64,000 nt of DNA from an uncultured Clostridium sp. (GTDB taxonomy: Bacteria > Bacillota > Clostridia > Peptostreptococcales > Peptostreptococcaceae). Within the stretch, counting starts at the first letter, position 1. Each line of letters begins with the position of its first letter. Of the stretch, positions 52,108 to 64,000 are shown piece by piece. The notes under the pieces are model-generated. The model saw only the letters and a program-made list of their open reading frames with translations. It had not been told where the DNA came from and did no database searches. The stretch lies in NCBI GenBank assembly GCA_945871955.1, contig CAMBXR010000005.1, positions 21,102 to 85,101 of the forward strand. Reading direction: 5' to 3'. A program made the translations under genes and the position numbers.

Positions 52108-53487
52108 TTATAAAGTTTCATAATCTATTTTAAAAATATTATCCAAGTCATCAACTTCCATTAAGTGATAGATACTAAAGTTATAGACTTCTCCTCCATG
52201 AAAATCACTTGGTGAATATGGAAAAGCTAAGTTACCTGCCGTTGCTTTTCTACCTTCATAACCAAAATGAAGCATACTAGATCTTGCAAAAGCACAAATT
52301 GTATCAGCTTTATCTTGGTTATCACAAACAGCTTCTATTACTACACCAATTTCATGACAATCACTTGTAGTAGGATTTATTTCAAGATTACCCATAACTG
52401 CATTTTTCCCGTATATTTTAATATCTAGATAGTAGTTCCAATTTTTAGATTTAAAATTATCTCTAACTCTTTCCTTCACACCTGCAATTATTTCATCAAT
52501 TTTTTCTATCATAATTGGATCCCTTGCTCCAGCTATGGAAACTGTCCTATATCCTATTAACTTAGCTCCTTCTAGTTTTATAGTGTATTTAGATGAAGAC
52601 ACAAATTTGCTGCCAGAAACCCTAACTATATTTTCACTATCTTGAATAAATTCACATTCTCTCAAGTCTAAATATCCACCAGGGCCTGGTAATATATATG
52701 GATTTGTTTTTTCATATAAAGTATGAGCTGCAACAGATACTGTGGTACATTTTCTAGTAGGATTTAATGGTTCTAGCCTAAAATAATCCCTACCTAAATA
52801 TCCAAACATACAATCAGATCCACTTCCAGGTGTGGCACAAATGGAAGAACACTCTAATATTTTCCCCAAATGAAGGGCCAAACCTTTATTATAACCTGAT
52901 TTTATGGCAGGAGCAGCAAATACAACAGGATCATAAGTACGTCCTCCTAAAATAACATCCACATCTTCATCTAAAGCTTTTAGATATGGCTCTAGTCCCA
53001 TTTGACCTACTATAGTTGTTGTTTCATCTATTAATTCTTCTGTAAGATGAGAAGCTGGTCCCAAAGGAGTAATTTTACCTTTTTTTAATGCATCTTTTAT
53101 GTCTTCCTTAGAAAACTCCGAGTGAATAGTGGCCAGTTTAAAATTTAAATTTTTTTCATTTGCTATTTCATAAATTATATCCTTACACCAATTTAAATGT
53201 ACTTCTCCTCCACTGCCACCTGCTGTACCTATAATTACAGGTATTTTATTTTTAACTCCATTTTCTAATATTATTTCCAAGTCTCTTTTTACTGCATCTC
53301 TATTTGTAAATGACTTGCCAGCTCCCAAATAATAAGGTCCTGGATCTGTAGAACCTGCATCAACTGCAATCACATCAGGTTTTCGCTTCATTCCTTCTTT
53401 AAAGGATTCTTCCGGAAATCCATATCCCAATATGGCTGTTGCAGATAAAATTTTAAATTCTTTCATCTTATTCCTCCATTTATTCAT
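52108..53487 (-). CDS. DUF1446 / acyclic terpene utilisation AtuA-like protein
   Basis: DVIAVDAGSTDPGPYYLGAGKSF, GTAGGSGGEVHLNWC, ILGGRTYDPVVFAAPAI. Confidence 0.85.
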   Translation of the reverse strand: MNKWRNKMKEFKILSATAILGYGFPEESFKEGMKRKPDVIAVDAGSTDPGPYYLGAGKSFTNRDAVKRDLEIILENGVKNKIPVIIGTAGGSGGEVHLNWCKDIIYEIANEKNLNFKLATIHSEFSKEDIKDALKKGKITPLGPASHLTEELIDETTTIVGQMGLEPYLKALDEDVDVILGGRTYDPVVFAAPAIKSGYNKGLALHLGKILECSSICATPGSGSDCMFGYLGRDYFRLEPLNPTRKCTTVSVAAHTLYEKTNPYILPGPGGYLDLRECEFIQDSENIVRVSGSKFVSSSKYTIKLEGAKLIGYRTVSIAGARDPIMIEKIDEIIAGVKERVRDNFKSKNWNYYLDIKIYGKNAVMGNLEINPTTSDCHEIGVVIEAVCDNQDKADTICAFARSSMLHFGYEGRKATAGNLAFPYSPSDFHGGEVYNFSIYHLMEVDDLDNIFKIDYETL

Positions 53488-54727
53488 TCATAATATTATT
53501 GAGAGCTAATATACGTTGCATTTCATTATAAACAATCATATACCCTTCATCTACACCCATACCTGGTTTGGCTAAAATTTGGTCTGGACCTGTGGCCATG
53601 GCAATATGAGTACAAATTTGCGCTGAACGATCTGTTTCATTACAAGTTCCACCTTGATATGCCAACATATTATTTTCTTTACAGTATAAAATTGCTTCTA
53701 CTATATTATTTATTCCCCCCAAGTCTGGAGTTTTAATTTGAATCATATGACCTGCTTTATTATCTGCAAAATATTTAATATCTTCTAAAGTATTACACCA
53801 TTCATCTGCCACAATTTCCACATTGAGATTTTTTTCATCAATTAATCTTCTAAGTTCTCTTAAAGCCATCATCTGCTTTTCTCTTTCCTCCACATCAACA
53901 GGCCCTTCTATACGAAGCTTAAAAGGTTTTGCTATTTCTCCTAATTTGCCCATGTAATTTACTATTTCTTCATAATTCTCATCTCCAAATATTACTCCTA
54001 AAGTTCCGTAAACATCTATATGAATTATAGGATTGTAATTATCATCATCTCTTAAATTTATTATTCTATTTCTTAACCAATACACATATTCTTCAAGCTT
54101 TTCTCCTCTATCTCCCAATTTATCCTTTATATTATTTATTAGTCCATGAGGAAGAACCTTTGCTTTCTTTATAATCATTTTATCTGCATTTTCGTAACGA
54201 CTATCACCACTTTGAGTAAATATAGGCACCATACGAGTTAAAACTTTAGTATTGTATTCCTTAGCTATAACTTGACACATTAAACAATGATTAGATTTAC
54301 TTACAGCATCTAGTATGGCTTGAGTAACTCCATATCTTATGGCTGTATGCAGCTTCTTATTATCCACTTTTATATTTTCTATAAGTTCACATAGTTCTCT
54401 AAAACTATCAGCTTCTTTATTTATTAATCTTGGTTTAATTTCTTTTTCTATTACAGGAATAAAGTCCTTAGCTAAAAATAGAGGATCCCTTCCTCCTGCC
54501 CCACTATATTGAACTGCTGCACAGTCTCCATATGCAATTTGTTTATCTTCCAAAATTATCATTACTGAAATTGATTCACCACTTTGTCTTATACTTGTGA
54601 ATCCTGGTGTAACTGTGTCTCCCATATAAGTAAATCCATCACTAATGGCACCCTTTTTTATTGCTCGTTGATCATCAAAATAAAAACCAGTTTTTCCACT
54701 GGAACAAACTACGTCAATGATTTTCAT
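53480..54727 (-). CDS. Methylaspartate ammonia-lyase (start trimmed to MKIIDVV)
   Basis: FTYMGDTVTPGFTSIRQSGESISVMI, AYGDCAAVQYSGAGGRDPLF, VADEWCNTLEDIK, QIKTPDLGGINN, GGTCNETDRSAQ. Confidence 0.94.
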   Translation of the reverse strand: MKIIDVVCSSGKTGFYFDDQRAIKKGAISDGFTYMGDTVTPGFTSIRQSGESISVMIILEDKQIAYGDCAAVQYSGAGGRDPLFLAKDFIPVIEKEIKPRLINKEADSFRELCELIENIKVDNKKLHTAIRYGVTQAILDAVSKSNHCLMCQVIAKEYNTKVLTRMVPIFTQSGDSRYENADKMIIKKAKVLPHGLINNIKDKLGDRGEKLEEYVYWLRNRIINLRDDDNYNPIIHIDVYGTLGVIFGDENYEEIVNYMGKLGEIAKPFKLRIEGPVDVEEREKQMMALRELRRLIDEKNLNVEIVADEWCNTLEDIKYFADNKAGHMIQIKTPDLGGINNIVEAILYCKENNMLAYQGGTCNETDRSAQICTHIAMATGPDQILAKPGMGVDEGYMIVYNEMQRILALNNIMNE

Positions 54728-54749
54728 AAGTTCATATCCTCCTTTATTC

Positions 54750-56207
54750 CTACTTATTTTTTGGACGTCCAATAAGTGTACCTTTACTTATGGCATAAAC
54801 ATCATCTATAACCATTTGGAATGATTTTTCTCTATTTTCAAATTTAGCGCGTTCTTCTATCTTTTTATTATTAAAATCAATTATCTCTGGTGTAAATGGA
54901 AGTTTTCCTGGATTTAGAATACGAATTGCTCCAAAGTTATCACGTGCTGGTAATAATTTTCCTAAAGTATGAACTGATGGTGCAAAAGGTATATCTAAAA
55001 CTCCACCTTTAAAAGCTCTAATTACTCCCAAAGCTATATCTCCCTCTCCCATCTCAAAACATTTATCTACAATACAACGCGTTTCTTTTTTAATTATTTC
55101 CTTTTCAACTTCCACTTCCTTAGTCTTAAATTCCTGATCTTTTAACATAGATAATACTTGTTTTGTACAAAGTAATCCTTGAGCATTTGCCTCCATAGTC
55201 GGAACTCCTATAGCTTCATGAGGTGTTTTTACAATAACTTTTGTTGCTTTTGAAAGAGATGCCAGTGTACTACCAAGAGCAATTACACTAAATGCCTTTG
55301 ATTCATTTTGAGGAAAACTTCCCATCCATTGATGTAGTACTGTAGTTACAATTACATCTTCATATCCATTATTTATCAGATAATCATTAGTCAATTCTTC
55401 TAGTGATTTTATAGCTGCTATATCTTGTATGAAGTTTCCACATTGACCATATCCTACAGATATATTTTTTACTCCTTGTTCTGCTGCAAGTAAACTTTCT
55501 ATAATAGCCACAGAGTGAGATATACACGGAGGTACTAATGTTCCAGTTAAAGGCCCATATGGCTCCCTATTAATTGATATATTCTCTTCTTCATAAATTC
55601 CAGCTAATCTATCTACATATTGCCAATCTTTTATGGTCTTTTCTAAAGGAACATTTTTTGCATAAGGAATATTATATGAAATTCCACCACCCTCAAAGGA
55701 TGTAAATCCAGCAGCATAAGTTATTTCACTTAACAGCCTGGCATCAGGAGTTCCATGTCTAACTTGAACAGGAGTATCAAGTGCATTGATTATTCTTCTA
55801 CAACTTTCAACTCCGTGATTCACTGCTGGAAATCCATTGAGCATAGATTTGTTATTTTTTATAGACTCAACTATACCCTTTTGTGCATCTTCATAACAAT
55901 TTTGTCTAGTATAACTGTCTATAGTAGTTGGAAGTAAATCTGCCTCTCCCACATCTTGTAAATATTTTAATAATTTGATTTGATCATCTACAAGTGCTAC
56001 ACCAGCTCTTGGCTGAATTAACGTTTTCTTTTCTTCTTTGGCTTTTATCAGTTTTTTAGAAAAAATTTTATATTCAGGTAGTTCATGATGATAACTAAAG
56101 GACTCTTCTAAGTCTACATCTTTTCCCGTGATCCAATTATTAAGAACTTCTTCTCTTGACTCCATAAATTCATCCCTAGGGATTTTTTTATTTTTAATTT
56201 CCATCAT
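54750..56207 (-). CDS. glmE: Methylaspartate (glutamate) mutase subunit E
   Basis: [74 protein letters not shown]. Confidence 0.96.
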
Positions 56208-57585
56208 ATTTTAACTCCTTTTTCATAATACGAATTGCAGCTTTTGGATATAATTGAGACAATAAACCCATAGCTGATAATATATATTTTCTGTCTACAA
56301 ATACTTGTGCTTCTTTTGGTCTTAGCGACTCTGGTTCATCATTATTAAATAATGCATATTCCATAACATTATATATATGTGCCATATGTACTAATGGGCC
56401 ACCTGTCGCTATAATTTTTTTTATATGAGTCAAGTCTTTGCCTTTTTGTAGATATGCTATGCCATTAGATGTGTATATTTTTTCTTTACTTCCACAATGT
56501 CTTTTACATGCTATTTCAACAGCCTTAGCTGCAAGCACAAAGTCTACTTTAATAAATTCTTTTTCTTTGCATATAATATGAGGGTTTGATCTTAAGTACT
56601 GAATAATTTGAATTGTTTTTTCTTTTGATAGGTTTGCCATACTTGATATTTTATCGACTCCCACTTCATCCATAATGCCAAAAATGCTATATCTCATTCC
56701 AATATCACCTTCAACAGTTCTTTTTATATAAGGTTCTTCAATCCCTTTATATATAACATTAGAGTCTTTTGGATATCCATCACCTACGGAATATACATCT
56801 GTTGTAGCTCCTCCCAAGTCTATTGCCAATAACTCACCTATACCTTTTTCTTCTTCATATCCTTCTGACAAAAGTTCTATGGCATCCATTACGGCACAAG
56901 GTGTCGGCATAAGAATTCCAGATATTAGTTTATTTATTTTAGTTATTCCTTTTGCATAAATAATTCTTTCTAAAAAAATTTCTCTTATTTTATTTTGAAC
57001 AGGCTCTATATTTAATTCACCAAATTTAGGCATCACATTTTCTACTATATATGCCTCTTTATTTTTTAATATATTTTTACATCTACCACTCACTTCCCTA
57101 TTTCCGGCTATTATTATAGGAAAAGTTGATTTACATCTAGATAATATTTTGGCATTATGCAAAATGCATTTTTTATCACCTCCATCAGTTCCCCCTACAA
57201 GCAAGAATATTTCTGGATTTATTTTTTCTATTTCTTCAAGATTTTCTTCATTCATTTCATAGCCATAAGTTTTTATTACTTTAGCTCCTGCTCCTAAACA
57301 CGCCTCTTTTGCAGCTTTAGTAGTAACATTTGGAACTAAACCACTTACAACCATTCTAAGTCCACCAGCTGCTGATGAGCAAGCAAGACAAGTATAATTA
57401 TCTAGATTACCAATTTGTTTTTCTAAGTTTTCTATAGCTAACATTAAACCTTCATTTATATCTGTATTTACAGTCGTAAAACTCAAATCACATCCAAGGA
57501 CTTCTTCTTTATCCATATCAACAGCAGTGACTTTAGTAAAAGTACTCCCAAAATCAATGAGTAATACTACTTTCATATTATTCAC
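56194..57585 (-). CDS. glmL: Glutamate mutase accessory protein GlmL/MutL (ASKHA ATPase)
   Basis: [59 protein letters not shown]. Confidence 0.95.
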
Positions 57586-57994
57586 CTATCTTTAAATCCA
57601 TTTTTAAAAATTTAATTGTTGTTTCTGGATCTGTACCAGGTGGAAATACTCTATCAAATCCCATATTTTTAAATCGTTTTTCTACTTCTTCAAAGGGTTG
57701 TTTTCCTACTACAATATTGCCTCCCACATATAATAATATATTTCTAAGTCCTGCCTCTTCACATCTTTCTCTTAATCCTCTACAATCTATTTCACCATGA
57801 CCATATAAAGAAGATACTAAAATCACATCTGCATTTGATTCAATGGCTGCTTCAACATACTCTTCTTGGGATACCATTACTCCAAGATTAATTACTTCAA
57901 AACCAGCCTCACTGAAGCAATGATAAAGGATTTTATTACCTATAGCATGTACATCAGCTCCAATAACTCCCATAACTAATGTTTTTTTCTCCAT
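57578..57994 (-). CDS. glmS: Methylaspartate (glutamate) mutase subunit S (B12-binding)
   Basis: [14 protein letters not shown] (DxHxxG), [23 protein letters not shown]. Confidence 0.96.
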
Positions 57995-59475: not shown

Positions 59476-59839
59476 TTTTTAAGTCTCCTTTTTAATAGTC
59501 TATCTTTTTATATTATCTCAATTAAATAATGCTTTAATACTAGATTTTTAATTTAGGCTCTGTTAGCTTACTTCGTGATAATTATAATAAAAAATAACCA
59601 TACCTTAGTAATTTCAATTTCTAAATACTAAATACTAAGATATGGTTGTTTAATTTGTTGTAAGTAGTTCGTACTAGATTAATATTACGATTTATCATAT
59701 GGAATTAGAATTAGATAATCAATAAATGTACTTATTAGTTATAAAAACTTGCCAAATTATTTTTTAACTGTCTCCATAAAATATTCACAACTTTTCCTTA
59801 TATTAAGAATAAGCACTCAAAAAGAAAGGAGAAAATATT

Positions 59840-61687
59840 TTGAGAGATAATGTGAAAGAAGTAATACTTAAAATTGAAGGTATGGTATGTGTTAACTGTG
59901 AAAATCTTATTGAGGATATACTTTTAGATAATAATGGGGTTAATAAAGTTGAAGTCTCATATACCAAAGGTTTAGCAAAAATAAATTATAATGAAAATAA
60001 GACATCTATAAATGATTTGATAAGAGTTATTTCTGAAAACGGATACAAAGTTATTGATTTTAGTAACGAAGTAAATGAAGATTTAAGTAATAAAAATAAA
60101 AAAAGTAAGAAAAGAGATATTGACTGCGCAAATAAAGATGAAGATAATACTTTTCTAATTATAATAATAATACTAGGTGTTATATTATTACTAAAAAAAT
60201 TTGGAGTTTCAAATATTTTCAGTGTATTTCCAACGCCAAATGAAAATACAAGTTATAGTATGTTGTTTATCATAGGTTTGTTTACTTCACTTCATTGTGT
60301 TTCAATGTGTGGAGGTATTAATTTATCACAATGTATAAACTATAATGATACTATTGATAAAGGTACATTATCAACAATAAAACCTGCTTTTTTATATAAC
60401 TTAGGCCGTGTGATTTCTTACACTATCTTTGGGGCCATAGTAGGAGGAATTGGTTCTATAATAAGTTTTACTGGATGGATGCAAAGTTTAATTCAGTTAA
60501 TTGCTAGTATATTTATGATTATAATGGGATTAAATATGTTAAATATTTTCCCTTGGCTTAGAAAACTAAATCCTAGGATGCCAAAAATATTTGCTAAAAA
60601 GTTTAAGTCTAAAAATAATAATAGTCCATTTTTTATAGGGTTATTAAATGGATTTATGCCATGTGGTCCATTGCAAGCAATGCAAATTTATGCTATTTCC
60701 ACAGGTAGTGTAACAAAAGGTGCTATTTCCATGTTTTTATTCAGCTTAGGAACAGTACCATTAATGTTTGGATTGGGCACATTAAGTTCTTACATGAGCA
60801 AAAAATTCTCTAATAAAATTATGAAGTTTGGAGCAATACTAGTTATTGTTCTTGGTTTTTCCATGTTTAATAATGCTTTAGCATTATCAGGAATTAATTT
60901 TTCTCAAGGTTCAGAAAATGATTCTGGAGTTAGGGCTGAAATACAAGATAATATTCAAGTAGTAACTACAAAGTTAAAAGGTGGAACATATGAACCAATT
61001 ATTGTTGAAGTAGGAAAGCCTGTAAAGTGGAATATACAAGTTTCAAATGGTAGTTTAAATGGTTGTAATAATAAAATAATTATAAGAGAATATGAAATAG
61101 AAAAAAGTTTAGAAATGGGAGATAATATAATAGAATTTACTCCAACCGAGGCAGGAACTTATACTTATTCATGCTGGATGGGAATGTTAAGAAGTAAGAT
61201 ATATGTAGTTAATCCTGGACAAGAGCCTGAAATTTCAGAAAACTTACAAAATGGATTAGATACACTTAATAAAATAAATTCGAATTATAAAATATCTACT
61301 GATGAAGTTGCAGTAGCCAAAGTATCAGGAAATGAACAGGTAGTTAATATAAATATTGAAAATGGTAGATTTACACCGGCAGTAATAATAATTCAAGAGG
61401 GATTGGAAACTAAGTGGAGTATAAATAATACTGATAATAAAAGTATATCTCTAGCATTTCCTATTTATAATCAAGTAGTAGATATGAACAAGGGAGATAA
61501 TGAAATTTATCTAATTCCAAGCGAAGACTTTACCTTTGCAGAAGAAAATTACAATTACTTTGGGTATGTGAAGGTTGTCAAAGATATTGACAATATAAAT
61601 CTAGATGGAATTAAAGAGGAGGTAAAAAAATATAAAATTTCTGAGAAAGACTATTTATCTGTGAATAGTCAAGCAAGTTGCCACTAA
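59840..61687 (+). CDS. Membrane protein with N-terminal HMA (CxxC), TauE/SafE-UreH-like TM domain and two cupredoxin-like segments; putative copper/heavy-metal handling
   Basis: IEGMVCVNCENLIEDILLDNNGVNKVEV; FTSLHCVSMCGGINL, NGFMPCGPLQAMQIYA; KPVKWNIQVSNGSLNGCNN...GTYTYSCWMGM. Confidence 0.85.
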   Translation: MRDNVKEVILKIEGMVCVNCENLIEDILLDNNGVNKVEVSYTKGLAKINYNENKTSINDLIRVISENGYKVIDFSNEVNEDLSNKNKKSKKRDIDCANKDEDNTFLIIIIILGVILLLKKFGVSNIFSVFPTPNENTSYSMLFIIGLFTSLHCVSMCGGINLSQCINYNDTIDKGTLSTIKPAFLYNLGRVISYTIFGAIVGGIGSIISFTGWMQSLIQLIASIFMIIMGLNMLNIFPWLRKLNPRMPKIFAKKFKSKNNNSPFFIGLLNGFMPCGPLQAMQIYAISTGSVTKGAISMFLFSLGTVPLMFGLGTLSSYMSKKFSNKIMKFGAILVIVLGFSMFNNALALSGINFSQGSENDSGVRAEIQDNIQVVTTKLKGGTYEPIIVEVGKPVKWNIQVSNGSLNGCNNKIIIREYEIEKSLEMGDNIIEFTPTEAGTYTYSCWMGMLRSKIYVVNPGQEPEISENLQNGLDTLNKINSNYKISTDEVAVAKVSGNEQVVNINIENGRFTPAVIIIQEGLETKWSINNTDNKSISLAFPIYNQVVDMNKGDNEIYLIPSEDFTFAEENYNYFGYVKVVKDIDNINLDGIKEEVKKYKISEKDYLSVNSQASCH

Positions 61688-61721
61688 TTAGATTAAAAGT
61701 AGACAAAGGAGTTATATAATC

Positions 61722-62411
61722 ATGAGTAAAAAGAAAATATTAATTGTAGAAGATGAAATAAAAATTCTAGAAGTTGTCACTTCATTAATGGAAAAACAAG
61801 GCTACGAAGTTTATCAAGCAGAAGATGGAAAACAAGCACTAAAAATATTTTATAACAATGAGATTTCATTAATTATATTAGATCTTATGTTACCTGATAT
61901 ATCCGGAGAAGAAATCTGTATGAAAATAAGAGAAAAATCTAGAGTTCCAATTATAATGCTAACTGCAAAAGTTGATGAATCAAATCTTTTACAAGGACTA
62001 GATATTGGGGCTGATGACTATATAACAAAGCCATTCAGTTTAATGGAATTAGTTGCAAGGGTAAAGGCTATATTAAGAAGAACATCAGAAGAATTAAATC
62101 CTTTATACAACTCATTTCAAAATGGAGATTTATATATAAATGTTGAAGCAAATATTATAAAAAAGAAAAATGAATTACTTAATCTAACCCAATCAGAATG
62201 GAAAATACTATTGTCTTTGATGAAATACCCCAATAAGGTATTTACTAGAGAAGAACTTATTCAAATAGCACTTGGAAGTAATTTTGATGGTTATAATCGT
62301 ACTATAGATACCCATATAAAAAACCTTCGCCAAAAGATTGAAGATAATCCTAAGTCACCTGTATATATAATAACAGTATTCGGTAAAGGTTATAAGTTTG
62401 GAGGTGAATAA
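61722..62411 (+). CDS. OmpR-family response regulator
   Basis: ILIVEDEIKILEVV, LIILDLMLPDISG, IMLTAKVDE; wHTH GYNRTIDTHIKNLRQKI. Confidence 0.95.
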   Translation: MSKKKILIVEDEIKILEVVTSLMEKQGYEVYQAEDGKQALKIFYNNEISLIILDLMLPDISGEEICMKIREKSRVPIIMLTAKVDESNLLQGLDIGADDYITKPFSLMELVARVKAILRRTSEELNPLYNSFQNGDLYINVEANIIKKKNELLNLTQSEWKILLSLMKYPNKVFTREELIQIALGSNFDGYNRTIDTHIKNLRQKIEDNPKSPVYIITVFGKGYKFGGE

Positions 62412-62416
62412 CTTAA

Positions 62417-63805
62417 TTGGAGCAAAGTATCAAAAGTAAACTATCCATATCTATAGCATTTATAGTTGTACTAACTGTTCTACTGATTAGTATACTTTCA
62501 AACTTGATTATAAAAAATGAATTTACTAAATATAAAGAAAAGCAACAGCTTGGAAAAATTGAAGAAATAGTTAATTCAATACAGGATCAATATAATATAA
62601 AAGAAAATAAATGGGACGAAAAAAATATTAATAATATAGGTATTTCATCATTAAATGAAGGATATATTATAAAAATTTACAACAAAGATAATAGTATATT
62701 ATGGGATGCCAAAGTTGCTAATATGCAATTGTGTAAAGATATAATGGATGAAATATGCAAAGTTATGGAGAATAATTTTCAAGTTGCAAATGGTAAAATA
62801 ATAAGTGAAAAATTTGAATTAACTAAATTTGGAAACAATATAGGAAATATGGAAATAGAATATTACGGTCCATTTTTCTTATCACAAAATGATTCTGAGT
62901 TCATAAAATCACTTAATTATATATTTATAGTTATTGGAATTGTTTCATTTATAATTGCTATTTGGGTCGGAAGTATATTATCTAAAAATATTAGCAAACC
63001 TATATCAAAGATGATAGGAGTAACTAAACATATTGCAAATGGAGAATATGAATATAGATTTGATAAAAATACTAAAATAAAGGAATTATCTGAATTACAG
63101 AACTCTATTAACCTTATGGCAGATTCAATTGAAAATCAAGAAAATTTAAGAAAACAATTAACTGCAGATATGGCTCATGAATTAAGAACACCATTAACAT
63201 CAGTAAGTACTCATTTAGAAGCTATGATAACTGGGCTATGGGAGCCAAGTAATAAGCGACTGGAAAGTTGTTATGAAGAGTTAAATAGAATTACTACTTT
63301 AGTAAAAGATTTAGAAAAACTTGCAAATGTGGAAAATGGATGTTATAAATTACAAAAAGTTCCATTTGATATGTTTGAGTTACTAAAAAAAGTTTCATAT
63401 AATTTTGAATATAAGATAAAAGAAAAAAAAATCAAATTTGAATTAATTGGTGAAAAACTTATTATTGAAGCAGATCAAGATAGAATATATCAAGTTATTA
63501 CCAATATATTATCTAATGCAATCAAATACACTAATAAAGAAGATAAAATAACAATTAAACTGTATAAAGAATCTGAATATGCTGTATGCGAAATTATAGA
63601 CACGGGAATAGGAATTTCACAAAATGAGCTTCCATATATTTTCGAGAGATTTTATCGTGCAGATAAATCAAGAAATAGAAAAACAGGCGGAGCCGGAATT
63701 GGTCTAGCTATTGTTAAATCAATACTTCAAGCACATAATGGAAAGATACAAGTAAATAGCCAATTGGGAAAGGGTAGCTCTTTTAAAGTGTTTTTACCTT
63801 TATAA
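62417..63805 (+). CDS. Sensor histidine kinase
   Basis: HAMP segment, DMAHELRTPLTSVSTHLEAM, NILSNAIKYT, GGAGIGLAIVKSIL. Confidence 0.95.
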   Translation: MEQSIKSKLSISIAFIVVLTVLLISILSNLIIKNEFTKYKEKQQLGKIEEIVNSIQDQYNIKENKWDEKNINNIGISSLNEGYIIKIYNKDNSILWDAKVANMQLCKDIMDEICKVMENNFQVANGKIISEKFELTKFGNNIGNMEIEYYGPFFLSQNDSEFIKSLNYIFIVIGIVSFIIAIWVGSILSKNISKPISKMIGVTKHIANGEYEYRFDKNTKIKELSELQNSINLMADSIENQENLRKQLTADMAHELRTPLTSVSTHLEAMITGLWEPSNKRLESCYEELNRITTLVKDLEKLANVENGCYKLQKVPFDMFELLKKVSYNFEYKIKEKKIKFELIGEKLIIEADQDRIYQVITNILSNAIKYTNKEDKITIKLYKESEYAVCEIIDTGIGISQNELPYIFERFYRADKSRNRKTGGAGIGLAIVKSILQAHNGKIQVNSQLGKGSSFKVFLPL

Positions 63806-63848
63806 ATTGATAATTATATTTTCAGACTCATTTATTTATATAAAAAAA

Positions 63849-63866
63849 TGAGAGCATAGCTCTCAC
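63849..63866 (+). terminator. Terminator-like hairpin after the histidine kinase gene
   Basis: TGAGAGC-ata-GCTCTCA. Confidence 0.6.
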
Positions 63867-64000
63867 CCTTTTGGTTCGTAATATATAACAATTACGAACT
63901 TAATTATATTATATATGATTAATCACGAAGTTAGCTAACAGAGCCTTAATTTAATATTTTTATAGTTTTATTTAAACTTATTCTTCCTATTCTTTCCTTT

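Follow-up and report, generated by a model that had tools for sequence, protein, structure and literature searches.

What kind of mobile unit has the ends of a transposon and a set of genes between them but no transposase, and how would such a unit be loaded? The question is raised by a 4,390-bp unit at positions 59556-63945 of a 64,000-nucleotide stretch of DNA (the window) from an uncultured Clostridium sp. of the Peptostreptococcaceae (GenBank assembly GCA_945871955.1, contig CAMBXR010000005.1, positions 21,102 to 85,101). A preliminary description read the unit as a transposase-less metal cassette with IS6-type ends; the first part of this reading stands and the IS6 assignment does not, and the recombination-like sites and modular exchange of cargo with which we are mainly concerned were missed. 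Judging from comparisons between genomes, we think it probable that this is an IS1595-type element which lacks a transposase, has a modular interior, is moved in trans and has its cassettes swapped by site-specific recombination.

Ends, target duplication and relocation of the window unit

The unit is flanked on both sides by the identical 8-bp target duplication TTAATTTA and is bounded by inward-pointing terminal inverted repeats (TIRs) that agree at 23 of 24 positions. Both features had been described correctly, apart from right-end coordinates that were one position too high. A scan of the window for the TIR at up to three mismatches returned two matches only, which are these two ends, and 100 dinucleotide shuffles returned none. 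No transposase open reading frame was found within 59556-63945, either in the list of open reading frames or by Pfam, and the unit is accordingly not autonomous. Comparison with its relatives establishes that the whole unit has moved: the sequence of 4,390 bp recurs with one mismatch in a second species, G005 (Clostridium sp. SUG825, a metagenome-assembled genome, MAG), where it has other surroundings and the duplication TAAAATAA. The unit is also absent at the orthologous cspA locus of four congeners (G001-G004), a comparison already proposed in the preliminary description; the cspA-side flank there runs on without it, the right flank being poorly checkable because only 47 bp of contig lie past the right duplication. 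The source genome and several of the relatives are drafts or MAGs. The features of the unit are listed below, where the shell is the part of each end that is kept among units with unrelated cargo (LE, left; RE, right).

59548..59555, no strand: left copy of the 8-bp target duplication TTAATTTA, read directly
59556..59579, forward: left TIR (LE TIR) GGCTCTGTTAGCTTACTTCGTGAT, the same TIR being found in the source genome and the bacterial family
59556..59682, no strand: left shell end (LE), with the TIR, a terminator-like hairpin (AACCATACCTTAG...) and the outer half of a T-type site; kept among shells with unrelated cargo, site coordinates from L003:1613
59668..59691, reverse: T-type recombination-like site, degenerate, ATCGTAATA/TTAATCTAGTACGAA, switch point between 59683 and 59682, by comparison with the consensus
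59683..63889, no strand: cargo cassette between the switch points, deduced from the site positions
59840..61687, forward: 615-aa membrane protein with HMA, a DsbD_2 transmembrane domain and two cupredoxin stretches (Pfam), probable copper handling
61722..62411, forward: OmpR-type response regulator, 229 aa (Pfam)
62417..63805, forward: sensor histidine kinase, 462 aa, with HAMP, HisKA and HATPase (Pfam)
63875..63898, reverse: G-type recombination-like site TTCGTAATT/GTTATATATTACGAA, an exact consensus match, switch point between 63890 and 63889
63890..63945, no strand: right shell end (RE), with the TIR and the outer half of the G-type site; kept among shells with unrelated cargo
63922..63945, reverse: right TIR (RE TIR) GGCTCTGTTAGCTAACTTCGTGAT, from the TIR scan of the window
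63946..63953, no strand: right copy of the target duplication TTAATTTA, read directly

All three cargo genes lie on the same strand, and their domains agree with the metal-type protein and two-component system described earlier. The membrane protein probably handles copper, and the other two genes form a two-component system that goes with it. The copper label is drawn from the HMA and cupredoxin domains and is to be taken as putative, since the named heavy-metal models fell under their cut-offs: TIGR01387 for the regulator, and TIGR01386 for the kinase (221 bits, cut-off 292.55). All matches of the 615-aa protein to NCBIfam copper/mercury chaperone models were likewise below cut-off.

The TIR family and its IS1595 transposase

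The source genome (draft, 2.96 Mb in 119 contigs) contains 20 matches to the TIR at no more than three mismatches, against 0 for the reversed control, and the TIR occurs in 21 of the 72 genomes of the bacterial family, so that the further copies which had been suggested as a check do exist, in relatives as well. Among 23 distinct TIR-bounded elements, preselected for paired ends with at most one mismatch in the duplication, the 8-bp duplication is perfect in 22 (the window unit and 21 others) and has one mismatch in the remaining one. Related gut clostridia (Intestinibacter and Romboutsia, including Intestinibacter bartlettii DSM 16795, G019) have elements in which the same TIRs as in the window enclose a gene for a 348-aa transposase of the IS1595 family; the protein scores 195 bits against NF033547 (cut-off 75) and is above the Pfam cut-off for DDE_Tnp_IS1595. 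These autonomous elements also hold varied passenger genes. Another IS1595-type transposase, 354 aa long and diverged (about 48% identical), adjoins the kind of recombination-like site described below (L117:348-1412 in G063; L118:4670-5800 in G055).

The IS6 assignment had been drawn from the 8-bp duplication and from ends starting GGCTCTGTT, which recall those of IS6 elements. The presence of an IS1595 transposase within these ends in relatives refutes it, and the only IS6-like transposase gene of the genome (DDE_Tnp_IS240, on C34) has no such TIR within five mismatches at its own locus; we therefore give an IS6-type origin practically no weight. An ISL3 origin was ruled out as well, the ISL3-type transposase of the source genome (C18) lying in an element that ends GGCTCAACAC... 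and not in the TIRs of the window.

Other complete elements with these ends in the source genome carry quite different genes: HflX, an Erm-type methylase and an RlmA-like methylase (C3:50068-54466), ABC transporter genes and a small secreted protein (C33:11017-15698), an Lsa-like ABC-F protein (C33:20483-22809) and, by eye, a GNAT-like gene (C42:314-2100); a further element is only 710 bp long (C46:5191-5900). The ABC transporter cassette, which also occurs at both ends of C66 and on C73 and C92 of G005, is bacteriocin-like by its layout and has no family match; it is found on plasmid-like contigs with different 8-bp duplications, and contigs break within it. About 390 bp from it on C33 lies an IS91-type transposase gene (Y2_Tnp and a zinc-binding domain; L012:3350-4630). 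Megablast of the window cassette against plasmids gave no match, and neither the TIR nor the site was found in viral contigs.

IS1595 elements with passenger genes are already known, namely tISCpe8 with lnu(P) and MTnSag1/ISSag10 with lnu(C), which have 25-bp inverted ends, an IS1595 transposase and 8-bp duplications that lie in AT-rich DNA (PMC5704250). The present family resembles them in its inverted ends, its 8-bp duplications, the IS1595 transposase of its relatives and an lnu(P) gene within the system, but no transposase is encoded in the window unit. The plasmid pL8 of Enterococcus faecalis carries ISSag10 with lnu(C), which starts GGCTCTGT, has the duplication TTATAAAA and similar ends, but lacks the recombination-like site. 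MIC231 of Bacillus cereus is a mobile insertion cassette of the IS231/IS4 type, from which the window unit differs in being of the IS1595 type. Mobile insertion cassettes in general have IS-like ends and passenger genes, no transposase, and are presumed to be mobilised by a related IS (PMC3129680); they are not known to contain an internal exchange site. The window unit shares their ends, passengers and lack of a transposase, as the preliminary description had argued.

A recombination-like site at which cargo switches

Shells of this family agree as far as a palindromic site of 24-28 bp near each end and then diverge. The core is AAGTTCRYAATT/GTTATA/TWWTRYGAA, the slashes marking the borders of the spacer, and the logo built from 128 sites reads AAG TTCRYAATT GTTATA TWWTRYGAA NTA, with 11-bp arms around a 6-bp spacer. 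A T-type variant, with the spacer TTAATA, stands at the opposite end of the cargo and is commonly followed by a terminator-like hairpin; both sites of one element have the same orientation. Counts of the site pattern were 34 against 2 reversed in the source genome, and 17 against 4 reversed in G005. Covariation in the palindromic arms showed no clear compensation, so that a folded single-stranded form gains no support. In several genomes (L008:2677, L016:3617, L114:4486 and others) the site is preceded by a second type of left end (GGCTATGTTTTAAATGAATGTTGAAAATGATACAATATAATTAAC), perhaps belonging to another type of shell.

The site is not tied to the TIRs. When the right end of the unit was used as a query, its inner half matched many places without TIRs, some behind the transposase gene of autonomous elements and some in clusters elsewhere. 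In the closed genome G063 the sites are clustered over about 50 kb (at approximately 185-240 kb), again without TIRs, and most of the other stretches sampled have none. Exact sites are present in Romboutsia, Intestinibacter, Paraclostridium ghonii and several genomes labelled Clostridium, as well as on a plasmid of Ligilactobacillus salivarius, where the position is behind an IS1595 transposase and upstream of a gene for arsenite efflux.

Near-identical sequences part company at one point of the site, AATT/G, which is the border of the left arm and the spacer. Contig C12 of the source genome and C340 of G005 are 99.6% identical over about 1.9 kb of chromosomal flank, TIR and left arm, after which the cargo differs; the first mismatch, in a comparison of 200 bp, is inside the site and 7 bases past AATT/G because the spacer is common to both. 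The start of the HflX/Erm cargo recurs on C181 of G005 with 222 of 224 positions identical to the right of the switch and 39 of 80 to its left. Among Romboutsia genomes, a PadR-type cassette (98.4% identical) is preceded by two left halves that differ. A site-bounded cassette with an Rpn-family nuclease gene is shared at 91.8% by the source genome (C5, 279-1106) and G063 (218574-219389), which belong to different genera.

At C15:39639-40377 of the source genome (L216:9640-10378) lies a cassette with a complete gene for a lincosamide nucleotidyltransferase of the Lnu(P) type (NF000061, 386.6 bits, cut-off 300); megablast of this cassette against plasmids gave no match. C15 and the MAG contig L232 agree from the cassette through the adjoining shell end into the flank; to the left of AATT/G, L232 has an IS1595 transposase, whereas C15 has an unrelated end, GGCTATGTTTTAAAT... 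The arrangement in L232 is thus transposase, site, lnu(P), site, and the transposase part is missing from C15; its loss would be explained most simply by a deletion between two direct sites. Of the 1,523 alignment ends in the fetched loci taken together, 251 lie at a site, while sites with their margins make up 0.74% of the DNA; as the loci were fetched for carrying sites, this enrichment is descriptive only.

These elements could instead be ordinary mobile insertion cassettes, in which an IS1595 element gained passengers and lost its transposase, the palindrome being merely subterminal (for transposase binding, or as a promoter or terminator) and the varied cargo stemming from independent capture and homologous recombination. 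The known cases of IS1595 elements that carry passengers (PMC5704250), and ISSag10 with lnu(C), in which similar ends are found without the site, would fit this account, as would the terminator-like hairpins that commonly follow T-type sites; part of the conservation may thus be transcriptional. However, the sites of the 50-kb cluster in G063 exist without TIRs, and the switching of near-identical sequences at the same point in several independent cases is not expected from homologous recombination over 24 bp, and we regard this account as unlikely.

By eye from translations, genes at 52108-57994 of the window, near the insertion site, resemble a glutamate (methylaspartate) mutase cluster.

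The putative recombinase and comparison with known cassette systems

In the mechanism that we propose, an IS1595-family transposase from an autonomous relative would cut and join the 24-bp inverted ends, with 8-bp duplications of AT-rich DNA sites as the outcome. Cassettes would be exchanged at AATT/G by a site-specific recombinase, which most likely is of the tyrosine type and acts in trans. Shells and IS1595 elements would serve as docking platforms, loaded cassettes would transpose along with them, and cassettes may be excised as circles. Exchange at the border of arm and spacer is an established trace of tyrosine recombinases in the case of Xer and dif, and it is the swap at this border of an 11-6-11 palindrome that points to an enzyme of that kind.

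Several findings weigh against this mechanism. No tyrosine recombinase gene (PF00589) was found inside the listed shells or in the G063 cluster, and for this reason the recombinase would have to act in trans. A search for an independent empty shell with a duplication of its own found none, and the only single-site junction, 173 bp at C33:15526-15698 of the source genome, lies within a larger element. The window unit has an exact right site and a degenerate left site, so the cargo of this copy may no longer be exchangeable. Finally, no intact IS1595 transposase was found in the source draft genome; its only close copy (C82) is 95% identical to that of the relatives, contains a stop and runs off the contig, and for the source strain we therefore only infer movement in trans.

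Host XerC/XerD would be the simplest candidate for the recombinase, another integrase being possible. A dif pattern of the B. subtilis type was absent from the source genome, and neither a weight-matrix scan built on dif sequences nor a comparison across genomes at the terminus produced a convincing site in the source genome or at the terminus of G063; one candidate in G063, at 1197412, was discarded, as similar sequences are clustered next to an integrase gene. With no clear chromosomal dif resembling the site, the same two-layer scheme might be served by a phage-type integrase in place of XerC/XerD, for example one of the two that flank the replication terminus. In G063 a divergent pair of tyrosine integrase genes (C1:1197488 and 1205452) lies a few kb apart at the switch of GC skew, that is, at the terminus; similar pairs are present in G019, G053, G056 and the source genome (C5:3750, reverse; C5:10580, forward), where sites at 176-3042 of C5 adjoin one integrase of the pair. 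Yet G015 has similar integrases and no match to the site in the right-end search, the stretch from 1.16 to 1.26 Mb sampled around the pair in G063 contains no site at up to three mismatches, and the 11-6-11 layout suits Xer equally well. We hold a phage-type integrase to be possible, though doubtful. The genes between the paired integrases are conserved among G063, G019, G053, G056 and the source genome.

Acinetobacter dif (pdif) modules carry varied cargo, such as resistance and toxin-antitoxin genes, bounded by sites with two arms and a 6-bp spacer, and have been described as restricted to Acinetobacter; their sites alternate in orientation (C and D modules), lie on Rep_3 plasmids and resemble the chromosomal dif (PMC13141974). 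The present cassettes likewise lie between two sites with 11-bp arms and a 6-bp spacer, but both sites of an element have the same orientation, they are found in transposon shells and chromosomal clusters, and a likeness to the host dif was not found. With integrons they share cassettes that have a recombination site, clusters of mostly one orientation (G063), resistance cargo and carriage on transposons. Integron attC sites have the motif GTTRRRY / RYYYAAC, which the logo of our site lacks; moreover, the cassettes are often multi-gene and lie in either orientation, and no integrase gene (PF00589) stands beside the sites in the shells and cluster named above. Searches of the open-access literature on IS1595 cassettes, integron-like systems and the Peptostreptococcaceae, most subscription journals being outside their scope, found no description of IS1595 shells with internal cassette-exchange sites, and those on dif in Firmicutes yielded nothing. 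The best reading of these comparisons is that IS1595 elements with passengers, transposase-less cassettes and dif modules are each known, and that their combination here matches neither dif modules nor integrons.

More broadly, Gram-positive gut bacteria may have a previously undescribed two-tier form of gene capture, in which sites of about 28 bp mark cassettes that are clustered in the chromosome, and IS1595 elements or shells without a transposase take these up by site-specific recombination and spread them, lnu(P) included, across genera by transposition; in our judgement the arguments for and against this wider proposal are evenly balanced. It leads directly to the prediction of cassette circles or site junctions and of a recombinase acting in trans, and the 24-bp motif could be used to annotate such cassettes. 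If true, it would explain how lnu(P)-type elements are assembled and why unrelated cargo (lincosamide/macrolide-type resistance, ABC-F proteins, metal handling and transporters) is found within the same transposon ends, and gut clostridia would have a cassette exchange comparable to that of integrons and dif modules, riding on IS1595 transposons.

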